From: Listeria cossartiae subsp. cayugensis | Lineage (GTDB): Bacteria > Bacillota > Bacilli > Lactobacillales > Listeriaceae | NCBI RefSeq assembly: GCF_014229095.1 | Contig: NZ_JAARZC010000001.1 | Span: forward strand, 1,054,001-1,118,000 | Direction of reading: 5' to 3' | DNA: 64,000 nucleotides | Shown: positions 8,301 through 53,977 of the stretch, one piece after another | Layout of the letters: each line of letters starts with the position of its first letter | Position numbering within the stretch: the stretch's first letter is position 1 | Notes under the pieces: model-generated | The model's input: the letters and a program-made list of their open reading frames with translations, nothing else | Database searches by the model: none | Told to the model about the DNA's origin: nothing | Program-made: the position numbers and the translations under genes

Positions 8301-9548
8301 GTGGCAGTTGAAAAAATCACCATGCCCAAATTAGGGGAAAGTGTAACAGAAGGAACGATTAGTTCATGGTTAGTGAAACCAGGCGATACAGTCGAAAAAT
8401 ATGATGCTATCGCAGAAGTATTAACCGACAAAGTAACAGCTGAAATCCCATCTTCTTTTAGCGGGACAATCAAAGAAATTTTAGCCGAAGAAGATGAAAC
8501 ATTAGAAGTAGGCGAAGTTATTTGCACAATCGAAACAGCTGATGCGGGCGATTCAGAGCCAGTTGCCGAAGTAGAGAAAGTGGAAGCCAAAGCCACTGAA
8601 AAACAAGAAACGAAACAAGTTAAACTAGCAGAAGCACCAGCTAGCGGAAGATTTTCCCCGGCCGTACTTCGAATTGCTGGCGAAAACAATATTGATTTAT
8701 CCACTATAGCAGGTACTGGTAAAGGTGGCAGAATTACAAGAAAAGATTTGCTACAAGTTATTGAAAACGGGCCAGTAGCTACTAAACCAGAAGTACAAAG
8801 TGCGCCACAAGAAAAAGCCGCTGCACCAACACCTGTACGCTCAGCAGCGGGTGATAAAGAAATCCCAATCAATGGCGTAAGAAAAGCAATTGCGAAACAT
8901 ATGAGCGTCAGCAAACAAGAAATCCCACATGCTTGGATGATGGTGGAAGTTGATGCAACAGGACTAGTTCGCTATCGTAATGCAGTGAAAGATAGCTTCA
9001 AAAAAGAGGAAGGTTACTCGTTAACTTATTTCGCCTTTTTCATCAAAGCAGTTGCACAGGCATTGAAAGAATTCCCACAACTTAACAGTACATGGGCAGG
9101 CGATAAAATCATCGAGCATGGTAATATCAATATTTCGATTGCCATTGCAGCTGGCGATTTATTGTATGTTCCAGTAATTAAAAATGCAGATGAAAAATCC
9201 ATTAAAGGTATTGCTCGCGAAATAAGCGAACTTGCTGGAAAAGCGCGTAATGGCAAACTTAGCCAAGCGGACATGGAAGGTGGTACATTCACAGTAAACA
9301 GCACCGGTTCATTTGGCTCTGTTCAATCAATGGGAATTATTAACCATCCGCAAGCAGCTATTCTTCAAGTGGAATCGATTGTAAAACGTCCAGTTATTAT
9401 TGACGATATGATTGCCGTGCGCGATATGGTGAACCTATGTCTGTCCATCGATCACCGTATTTTAGACGGGTTATTAGCTGGGAAATTCTTACAAACAATT
9501 AAAGCGAATGTCGAAAAAATTTCCAAAGAAAATACAGCGTTATATTAA
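8301..9548 (+). CDS. bkdB: branched-chain 2-oxo acid dehydrogenase E2 (dihydrolipoyl acyltransferase)
   Basis: This 415-residue E2 has the expected order of parts. A lipoyl domain has lipoyl-lysine K44 in EVLTDKVTAE. Then come an acidic linker, a peripheral subunit-binding domain (about 115-152, FSPAVLRIAGENNIDLSTIAG), a second Ala/Pro-rich linker, and the acyltransferase domain. The active site DHRILDG has the catalytic His and Asp near the C-terminus; DHRVVDG is the commoner form. It forms the core that transfers branched acyl groups to CoA. The start is GTG at 8301 behind AAAGGAGTG. It is the last gene of the operon. No separate terminator is visible before the sbrA terminator at 9624-9654, so bkd transcripts may end there too. 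Confidence 0.93.
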   Translation: MAVEKITMPKLGESVTEGTISSWLVKPGDTVEKYDAIAEVLTDKVTAEIPSSFSGTIKEILAEEDETLEVGEVICTIETADAGDSEPVAEVEKVEAKATEKQETKQVKLAEAPASGRFSPAVLRIAGENNIDLSTIAGTGKGGRITRKDLLQVIENGPVATKPEVQSAPQEKAAAPTPVRSAAGDKEIPINGVRKAIAKHMSVSKQEIPHAWMMVEVDATGLVRYRNAVKDSFKKEEGYSLTYFAFFIKAVAQALKEFPQLNSTWAGDKIIEHGNINISIAIAAGDLLYVPVIKNADEKSIKGIAREISELAGKARNGKLSQADMEGGTFTVNSTGSFGSVQSMGIINHPQAAILQVESIVKRPVIIDDMIAVRDMVNLCLSIDHRILDGLLAGKFLQTIKANVEKISKENTALY

Positions 9549-9552
9549 AGAT

Positions 9553-9577
9553 GTTTTAATCTAGGTTTAGCGGGTAT
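9553..9577 (+). promoter_or_regulatory. sigma-B promoter of sbrA
   Basis: GTTT (9553-9556, in GTTTTAAT), a 15-bp spacer and GGGTAT (9572-9577) match the Firmicute sigma-B consensus GTTT-N13-15-GGGWAT exactly. It begins four bases after the bkdB stop codon and points at the terminator at 9624-9654. Confidence 0.8.
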
Positions 9578-9583
9578 TGTTTA

Positions 9584-9654
9584 GTACATCTAGATCCATA
9601 CCCCTAAACTCCCTAGATGTCTTGGGTAGTACTTTCGGGTGCTGCTCTTTTTTT
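9584..9654 (+). ncRNA. sbrA: SbrA, sigma-B-dependent small RNA
   Basis: A start about 7 bases after the sigma-B -10 box and an end in the T-run of the terminator give a transcript near 70 nt. This matches my recollection of SbrA, the sigma-B-dependent RNA reported between the bkdB and peptidase genes of L. monocytogenes. Two hairpins are visible. The 5' one pairs ACATCTAG (9586-9593) with CTAGATGT (9613-9620) around a 19-base loop rich in C (ACCCC and CTCC). The 3' one is a 9-bp stem with wobble pairs, 9624-9632 with 9639-9647, followed by seven T. No reading frame of note is present. The exact 5' end is inferred. Confidence 0.75.
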
Positions 9655-9660
9655 GAGGAG

Positions 9661-9695
9661 AAAAATAAAAAAGTCTGAACCAGTTTGGCTCAGAC
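9661..9695 (-). terminator. terminator of prli42
   Basis: On the minus strand GTCTGAGCCA pairs with TGGTTCAGAC (bases 9673-9695) with one mismatch, then TTTTTTATTTTT. It lies 9 bases after the prli42 stop and only 7 bases from the end of the sbrA T-run, so the two transcription units end back to back. Confidence 0.75.
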
Positions 9696-9704
9696 GATGG
9701 ATAT

Positions 9705-9800
9705 TTATAAAAACATTAATACCCCGGTTAAAACACTTGATAATACAATCGCGATTAACATTAAAATAACAACAACGCGAACTACTTTTTTATTAGTCAT
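9705..9800 (-). CDS. prli42: Prli42, stressosome-associated membrane miniprotein (31 aa)
   Basis: This is a 31-codon ORF. The N-terminus MTNKKVVR is basic (K4, K5, R8) and is followed by a single hydrophobic helix running to the C-terminus (residues about 9-31, ending GVLMFL). It matches the composition and length I know for Prli42, a membrane miniprotein conserved in Firmicutes that anchors the stressosome through RsbR1 and is needed for sigma-B activation in Listeria. Supporting gene signals: a sigma-A promoter (9843-9871), a GAGAGGAG ribosome site about 12 bases before ATG, and a terminator directly after. It is short enough to be missed by ORF callers. It converges on sbrA. Confidence 0.85.
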   Translation of the reverse strand: MTNKKVVRVVVILMLIAIVLSSVLTGVLMFL

Positions 9801-9842
9801 TGCGGAAGAAAACTCCTCTCATAAAGCATTTCAGATATATCC

Positions 9843-22676: not shown

Positions 22677-23514
22677 AGGAAAGTAAATCCTTTTTTTGAG
22701 CTTGAATTTGTTTTTCGCTAGCAGCATATTTTGATTGTGTTCGGTCAAGCAGTTCATCAAAAAAATTTGGCAACTCAGTTTGGCTCAGCTCCACGCCTTC
22801 CGCTGTGCTACCACCTTTTGTTGCAACGCGTTCAATCAAGCCGCTAAACGTGTAATCTTCCTCAACTAACAACTTGGAAGTTCCCGCCAAAGCAAAATTA
22901 ATCATTTGGAAAACCTCAGCATCTGATAAAGAAGACCTTCTAAGAGCGGCTTCCACAAATTGTTCAAAAATCGCTGCGATAATACCAGGCGAGGAGCTAG
23001 TTAAATCACTTGCAACATCCATATTTTCTTCGCGAATCGTCATCACATGTCCAAAATGCTCAAAGGCCGTTTCCAACCAAGTACTATTCTTGGCATCAAC
23101 CGTATCAGCATGCGCAATCAACGTTGTCCCGACGCCAACAGTCGACGTGATAGAAGGAATCAGTTTACTAATTTGTAATGTGGGCGAAAGTGCTAAAATA
23201 TCAGAAGTACTGACGCCAGCCGCAATAGAAATGACATGACGTTGCGCTGTAAGTACCGCCGAACAATCTTTTATAAGTGGTAAAACAGCAAGTGGCAATG
23301 TACAAATAAAACTATGCGCCGCTTTTGTAAAAACTTCCGCTTCGTTACTAGCTAATTCCGCCGTCGGATATGTATCATAAAATTGTTTAAAATGCTCATT
23401 TTGGGAATTGGAATAAAGGATGATTTCTTCAGGAGTTGCAATCTCAGTTTCTATTACTTTAGTCGCAATTAACGATGCCATACTTCCAAAACCGATAAAT
23501 CCTATTTTTGTCAT
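22675..23514 (-). CDS. pyrroline-5-carboxylate reductase-like protein (ComER/ProC family)
   Basis: This 279-residue protein starts with the Rossmann motif KIGFIGFGSMASLIA. Later ProC-type features are AAGVSTSDILAL, KLIPSITSTVGVGTT and a C-terminal dimerisation segment with SDLTSSSPGI and ATKGGSTAEGVE. Canonical ProC enzymes carry a stricter TSPGGTT-like end, so this may be the ComER-type paralogue rather than the housekeeping proline enzyme. The ATG at 23514 is chosen because AAAGGCGGG is correctly spaced for it; an in-frame ATG at 23532 is not. It stands alone, divergent from tcsA. Confidence 0.75.
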   Translation of the reverse strand: MTKIGFIGFGSMASLIATKVIETEIATPEEIILYSNSQNEHFKQFYDTYPTAELASNEAEVFTKAAHSFICTLPLAVLPLIKDCSAVLTAQRHVISIAAGVSTSDILALSPTLQISKLIPSITSTVGVGTTLIAHADTVDAKNSTWLETAFEHFGHVMTIREENMDVASDLTSSSPGIIAAIFEQFVEAALRRSSLSDAEVFQMINFALAGTSKLLVEEDYTFSGLIERVATKGGSTAEGVELSQTELPNFFDELLDRTQSKYAASEKQIQAQKKDLLS

Positions 23515-52807: not shown

Positions 52808-53977
52808 TCAAGCTCTTTCGACAATAATAGCAATCCCGATGCCGCCGCCAATACATAAGGAAGCAACTCCGGTTTTCTTGTTTTCTTGTTTTAACTCATT
52901 TAATAAGGACGCAATAATGCGTGCCCCAGATGCTCCGATTGGATGACCTAGTGCAATTGCGCCACCGTAAATATTAAGTTTCTCTTCCGGGATTTCTAAG
53001 TCACGAGCTACTGCAACAGATTGTGATGCAAAAGCTTCATTTAAATGGAATAAATCAATTTCGTCGATTGTGTATCCGCCTTTTGCTAATGCTTCATTAA
53101 CTGCGTAGTACGGAGCATAGCCCATAATTGCAGGATCAACACCGATTTCGGATGTTACCTTAATTGTCGCGATATAAGGAATATTTTCGGCAATTGCTTT
53201 TTCCTTCGACATTAAAATAATTGCGGAAGCTCCGTCGTTTATACCAGAAGCATTGCCGGCTGTGACCGTTCCGTCTTCTTTAAATACGCTTTTCAAGGTA
53301 GCTAATTTTTCTAAAGTAGAGTTTGCACGGATTGTTTCGTCGGCTTCGAACAGTGAGCCATCCGTAAGTTCCACGGGGATAATTTCTTCGCTAAAAAGAT
53401 TTTTTTCTTGCGCACTTGCGGCTTTCATTTGTGAGTTATGAGCGAATTTATCTTGTTCTTCGCGAGATACGGAGAATTTTTCAGCTACGTTTTCTGCTGT
53501 AATTCCCATATGATATTCGCCGTAAACATCTGTTAATCCATCAATTAACATGCTATTTCTTAAATTTTTTGGATTGATTTCTTCGCCAGCTAGTTCAGGG
53601 TTAAGTAACAGTGGAGCTTGGGACATGTTTTCGGTCCCTCCTACAGCTACGATATCCGCCTCGCCTAGTTGTATTGCTTGTCTGCCAAGCATGATTGATT
53701 TTAAACCAGAGCCACAAACTTCATTGATAGTGACACCGGGTACTTTATAAGGAATTCCTGCTTTAATAGCGACTTGTCTAGCTACGTTTTGACCAAGACC
53801 GGCTTGTAATACATTGCCGAAAATAACTTGATCTACGCGGTCTGGAGCGATGTTGGCTCTTTCTAAAACGCCTTTTAGAGCCGTAGCGCCAAGGTCTACT
53901 GCACTGATGTCTTTCAAACTGCCACCGAATTTTCCAATTGGTGTTCTAACTGCATCTATTATAACTACTTCGTTCAT
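52808..53977 (-). CDS. acetyl-CoA acetyltransferase (thiolase)
   Basis: This 389-residue biosynthetic thiolase has acyl-enzyme Cys88 in NEVCGSGLKS. GGTENMSQAPLL is present. The catalytic His lies in GGAIALGHPIGASGAR, and the second Cys in SLCIGGGIG near the C-terminus. It condenses two acetyl-CoA to acetoacetyl-CoA. Its position, divergent from mvaS, makes the first step of the mevalonate pathway the likely role. The start ATG follows AAAGGAG. The promoter has an extended -10, TGATATAAT on the minus strand (54016-54008). Confidence 0.93.
   Translation of the reverse strand: MNEVVIIDAVRTPIGKFGGSLKDISAVDLGATALKGVLERANIAPDRVDQVIFGNVLQAGLGQNVARQVAIKAGIPYKVPGVTINEVCGSGLKSIMLGRQAIQLGEADIVAVGGTENMSQAPLLLNPELAGEEINPKNLRNSMLIDGLTDVYGEYHMGITAENVAEKFSVSREEQDKFAHNSQMKAASAQEKNLFSEEIIPVELTDGSLFEADETIRANSTLEKLATLKSVFKEDGTVTAGNASGINDGASAIILMSKEKAIAENIPYIATIKVTSEIGVDPAIMGYAPYYAVNEALAKGGYTIDEIDLFHLNEAFASQSVAVARDLEIPEEKLNIYGGAIALGHPIGASGARIIASLLNELKQENKKTGVASLCIGGGIGIAIIVERA

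Follow-up and report, generated by a model that had tools for sequence, protein, structure and literature searches.

A family-wide small RNA with an invariant, C-rich core lies at 9584–9654 (+) of the window, the 64,000-nucleotide stretch of a Listeria cossartiae subsp. cayugensis genome analyzed here. The RNA is SbrA, an already described Listeria small RNA of about 71 nt that is also called Rli11 (PMC4214639). Its 18-nt core, ATACCCCTAAACTCCCTA (9598–9615, +), is the presumed pairing region and is identical in all 34 genomes where the RNA was found. It seems likely overall that SbrA is started by sigma-B and acts in trans, with the core pairing to the ribosome-binding regions of mRNAs.

The identity of the RNA follows from a cmscan match to Rfam family RF01489 (sbrA) at 103.2 bits (E 1e-21), which spans model positions 1–71 of 71 and exceeds the curated gathering cutoff of 45 bits over the whole model. 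A sequence-only reading of the DNA had named SbrA from the location, and the full-length match shows that the name was right. Directly upstream is bkdB (8301–9548, +; stop codon TAA at 9546–9548), the gene for the E2 acyltransferase in the branched-chain keto acid dehydrogenase operon. In NCBIfam this open reading frame best matches E2 acyltransferases from 2-oxo acid dehydrogenase complexes, and the gene name was assigned from operon order. Lying 3′ of bkdB and convergent with rli42/prli42, the window copy sits where RF01489 is expected. SbrA/Rli11 of L. monocytogenes is the same RNA, with the same bkdB–prli42 location, a sigma-B promoter and a length of 71 nt, and nothing separates the window RNA from this family. 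A scan of SbrA for small open reading frames found none with a stop codon inside the RNA.

The promoter, GTTT-N15-GGGTAT (9553–9577, +), is an exact match to the sigma-B pattern and begins four bases past the bkdB stop. GTTT, at 9553–9556, is the −35 element. GGGTAT, at 9572–9577, ends 6 nt short of 9584, where the Rfam model puts the expected 5′ end of the transcript. The pattern alone is not rare: the window has three matches where 1.0 would be expected, and 12 of 100 shuffles reach at least three. The two further matches to GTTT-N13-16-GGGWAT, at 23385–23408 (+) and 53502–53527 (−), are about as many as chance would give. What makes the sbrA promoter real is its position together with its conservation: all 34 sbrA copies follow bkdB, and each has a promoter of the form GTTT-N14/15-GGG[TA]A and ATACCCCTAAACTCCCTA without substitution. 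In some genomes sbrA sits about 90 nt from bkdB, and the promoter is still kept. The sigB gene was found in all 36 Listeriaceae genomes, including the two of genus g2; in G018 the match (C1:910901–911656) contains one internal TGA and may be a broken sigB or a sequence error.

Published work agrees with the consensus sigma-B promoter that had been proposed just past bkdB. Sigma-B dependence of SbrA was described in strain EGD-e (Nielsen 2008, as cited in PMC2813243), at pH 5.5 wild-type 10403S and H7858 had higher sbrA than their sigB mutants (PMC5808219), and both a sigma-B promoter and sigma-B dependence were reported for stationary-phase 10403S (PMC8066629). Two results count against our main reading. 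RNA-seq of 10403S detected SbrA without sigma-B dependence (PMC2813243), and deletion of sbrA gave no phenotype (PMC3565269). SbrA has also served as an unrelated negative control in an in vitro test (PMC4214639).

The RNA folds as two hairpins (−20.4 kcal/mol, z = −3.6). Hairpin I (9586–9620, +) has an 8-bp stem and a 19-nt loop at 9594–9612 that contains ACCCC and CTCC, as the sequence-only reading had described. Hairpin II with its T run is an intrinsic terminator (9624–9654, +), in which 10 bp at 9624–9647 are followed by seven T ending at 9654. This is the strong terminator that had been placed some 80 bases downstream, and it is among the two that a terminator scan found in the region against 0.2 expected. 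The same scan found no terminator between bkdB and the sbrA promoter, in keeping with the earlier remark that bkdB has no other, and the sbrA terminator probably also ends the bkd mRNA. A comparison of 18 distinct sbrA sequences separates the two hairpins. In hairpin II two pairs are changed on both sides and 98% of the cells are paired. In hairpin I there are no compensating changes: four of the eight pairs are invariant, and the other four depart solely by mismatches, with the hairpin broken in L033 and L034 and one pair lost in L031.

RF01489 is present in 34 of the 36 Listeriaceae genomes: each of the 25 from the window's genus (g1, Listeria) and each of the nine from the sister genus g3 carries it, and neither of the two g2 genomes does. 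Across 296 genomes of the order, matches outside Listeriaceae were found solely below the cutoff, at 28–33 bits. A loop that varied across Listeria species was to have refuted the earlier reading; 18 bases of loop and stem prove invariant in 34 of 34 genomes. The core even outlasts its stem. In G023 (L034) the stem is largely gone, with a 5′ strand of CACACCGAG versus CTAAATGT, and the promoter, core and terminator are retained; in G003 (L033) the stem of hairpin I is halved and the core is intact. Because the core survives stem decay in these genomes, the loop is the functional part, with its sequence selected rather than the stem. G023 is a small Listeria genome of 2.1 Mb in which the −10 element reads GGGAAA, and it offers a natural test of what SbrA requires. 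The retention of bkdB, the sigma-B-type promoter and the core in 34 of 34 genomes is new from this genome comparison.

The nature of the core suggests how the RNA might work. The complement of the loop and the stem edge, AGGGAGUUUAGGGGUAUG, is laid out like a ribosome-binding site followed by a start codon, and the core exactly complements AGGGAG-N9-AUG, a translation start region. From its invariance and this complementarity, the core very probably pairs with mRNA. The AUG part of it is not essential, because the base facing the last G of AUG varies, with UAU replacing CAU in L024, L028, L033 and L034. Under stress, sigma-B RNA polymerase would initiate at about 9584 and produce an RNA of about 71 nt that ends at its own terminator. 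This RNA would expose a 19-nt unpaired, C-rich loop and act in trans, the core pairing with the ribosome-binding regions of at least one mRNA and lowering translation.

SbrA has the conserved, unpaired, C-rich seed typical of trans-acting antisense small RNAs. Short Gram-positive RNAs such as LhrC/Rli22/Rli33-1 and RoxS/RsaE use unpaired C-rich motifs against ribosome-binding sites. SbrA shares short size and the unpaired C-rich motif with these RNAs but differs in sequence, regulator and place, and its core reads ACCCCUAAACUCCCU instead of UCCC repeats. A parallel known to work is Rli47/SbrE of L. monocytogenes, which like SbrA is sigma-B-driven with a CU-rich loop, in this case one that pairs with ilvA at its Shine-Dalgarno region (PMC12596718). 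The two are different families: SbrA is family-wide, but Rli47/SbrE, about 500 nt long with several stem–loops, is absent in Listeria sensu lato species.

Two other accounts of SbrA have to be weighed against trans-acting pairing, and both seem improbable. SbrA could chiefly represent the 3′ end of bkd mRNA, with hairpin and terminator protecting the transcript and the short RNA arising as a processing by-product. The continuity of bkdB with SbrA, with no terminator separating them, would allow this, and the sigma-B-independent SbrA reads in 10403S (PMC2813243) fit a bkd contribution. Against it, the sigma-B promoter is kept in every copy, even with bkdB about 90 nt away, and protection of an mRNA end requires the hairpin, yet it is the stem that breaks while the loop stays. 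We put a similarly low likelihood on the core being the site of an RNA-binding protein that SbrA titrates, in place of mRNA pairing. The nearly fixed sequence of loop and stem, the lack of covariation in hairpin I and the failure of our search to find a conserved mRNA target would all suit a protein site. Such sites, however, usually need a stem, which is lost in G023 and G003, and the core, like that of other Listeria regulatory RNAs, is complementary to a translation start region.

For trans-acting pairing by SbrA, the question becomes which mRNA is bound. The sequence-only reading knew of no established target, and the papers found likewise name none. Near-full complements of the core (three or fewer mismatches) are not enriched in the genome, with 16 against 21 for the reversed control. 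Two sites with two mismatches, one in the coding end of a PTS IID gene and one upstream of a spoVG-like gene before a promoter-like sequence, are unconvincing as leaders because of their location. For start-anchored seeds the comparison covered a sample of genomes. The seed GGGAGTTT outnumbers its reversed control (31 versus 10), a control that is unfair because the seed contains a Shine-Dalgarno sequence; TTTAGGGG and TAGGGGTR are each rarer than their reversed controls. The leader of a FliN-like motility gene was set aside, as its predicted pairing, −19.8 in the monocytogenes group, weakens to −14.3 in G010 and to between −7 and −9 in G005 and G011, and the gene is missing from 19 of the 36 genomes. 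Feedback on the neighbor prli42 was likewise rejected, with ordinary leader pairing of −5.8 to −11.7. A minus-strand sigma-B promoter formed by the loop (GTTTAGGGGTAT) was also considered and has no −35 element at a suitable distance.

The best conserved candidate is the leader of thiT, where SbrA would repress thiamine uptake by pairing its core with GGGAGTTTATTTTTTATG, the ribosome-binding site that follows a TPP riboswitch. Of the 36 genomes, the 34 that carry sbrA are also the ones that carry thiT. Ahead of the ATG, nearly all Listeria leaders read have kept GGGAGTTTA, two have GAGGAGTTTA, and their predicted pairing with the core is −15 to −19 kcal/mol. In the sister genus the leader has AGGGGTAT or GGGGGTAT in most genomes read, meeting the other half of the core, although pairing drops to −10.6 to −14.4. 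At best the leader ranks in about the top 4% of those sampled, as about 4% of 47 window leaders pair equally well, and the riboswitch, which also uses the leader, could explain its conservation. We know of no link between thiamine and sigma-B, which also speaks against thiT, and as a target of SbrA it would be a long shot. Among the thiT leaders (L155–L184, L063, L081 and L082), GGGAGTTTATTTTTTATG is nearly unchanged through the genus, and most g3 leaders read have AGGGGTAT or GGGGGTAT at the same place.

The stretch immediately upstream of SbrA may hold a further layer of control. The promoter spacer and −10 element, ATCTAGGTTTAGCGGGTAT (9559–9577, +), match the SbrA loop and 3′ stem as an imperfect inverted repeat, which the spacer forms with the loop in most Listeria genomes, and 9540–9654 folds as one long hairpin in which 9559–9577 is paired with the loop (−38.2 kcal/mol, z −4.9). 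The core is unpaired with a probability of 0.82 in SbrA alone versus 0.05–0.42 with the upstream arm in most Listeria. This pattern was first noticed in the window and tested afterward. L001 has the same promoter arm and loop as the window; there the arm–loop duplex reaches −16.8 kcal/mol, and shuffles with the −10 element held constant give −10.4. The duplex beats shuffles in L001 (p 0.022), L017 (0.022), L018 (0.004), L021 (0.006) and L033 (0.004), none of 500 shuffles was as good in L024 and L028, and the result is borderline (0.05–0.1) in L016 and some species of the monocytogenes group. By the same shuffle test the arm is absent in the sister genus g3, G010 and G023 (loci including L020 and L034), so it is not essential to SbrA as such. 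On a bkdB tree whose deep branches have little support, the arm fits one gain within the genus and one loss. It may be the decay remnant of an old inverted repeat, yet the spacers vary in sequence between clades while the pairing persists, which favors selection on the arm.

In the window's lineage, bkd read-through RNA would pair the spacer with the loop and hide it, leaving only sigma-B-started SbrA active. The sequence-only reading had allowed for a second supply of the same 3′ end from bkd mRNA; since folding predicts a masked loop, such a copy, if read-through occurs, would not be an equivalent source of SbrA. We tentatively suggest, as a possibility we regard with some doubt, that the sbrA promoter also serves as an RNA safety catch, with the copy on bkd mRNA folded shut and only molecules started by sigma-B able to act. 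Such masking suggests why RNA-seq counts of sbrA may not track sigma-B, as bkd read-through would be counted though folded inactive.

Downstream lies prli42 (9705–9800, −), a convergent gene for a 31-aa membrane miniprotein, with its own terminator at 9673–9695 (−). Rfam still classes the stretch at 9667–9837 (−) as the small RNA rli42 (RF01474), though it encodes Prli42. The genes rli42 and sbrA/rli89 have been listed as an antisense pair (PMC4179725); in the window the two RNAs end 12 bases apart with no overlap if both terminate, and therefore overlap requires read-through. A convergent prli42 was found downstream of sbrA in every one of the genus's 25 genomes and in three from g3. Three g3 loci (L022, L023 and L025) have repeat-like TTGGGG...CCCCAA stretches between sbrA and prli42, which there are 280–350 bases apart. 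Prli42 acts on the stressosome, upstream of sigma-B, and an RNA output and a protein input of sigma-B are thus convergent neighbors throughout the genus.

SbrA has been known since 2008, and the comparison narrows what its partner should look like. Binding must involve the 18 bases of ATACCCCTAAACTCCCTA, the stem should be dispensable for it, and the partner is expected family-wide, including the sister genus. In the SbrA/Rli11 literature we found no description of the masking arm or of a core that survives stem loss, and read-through masking is a possible new element on a known RNA. If it is true, the 3′ end of an operon and a stress regulator would share one terminator without cross-talk.
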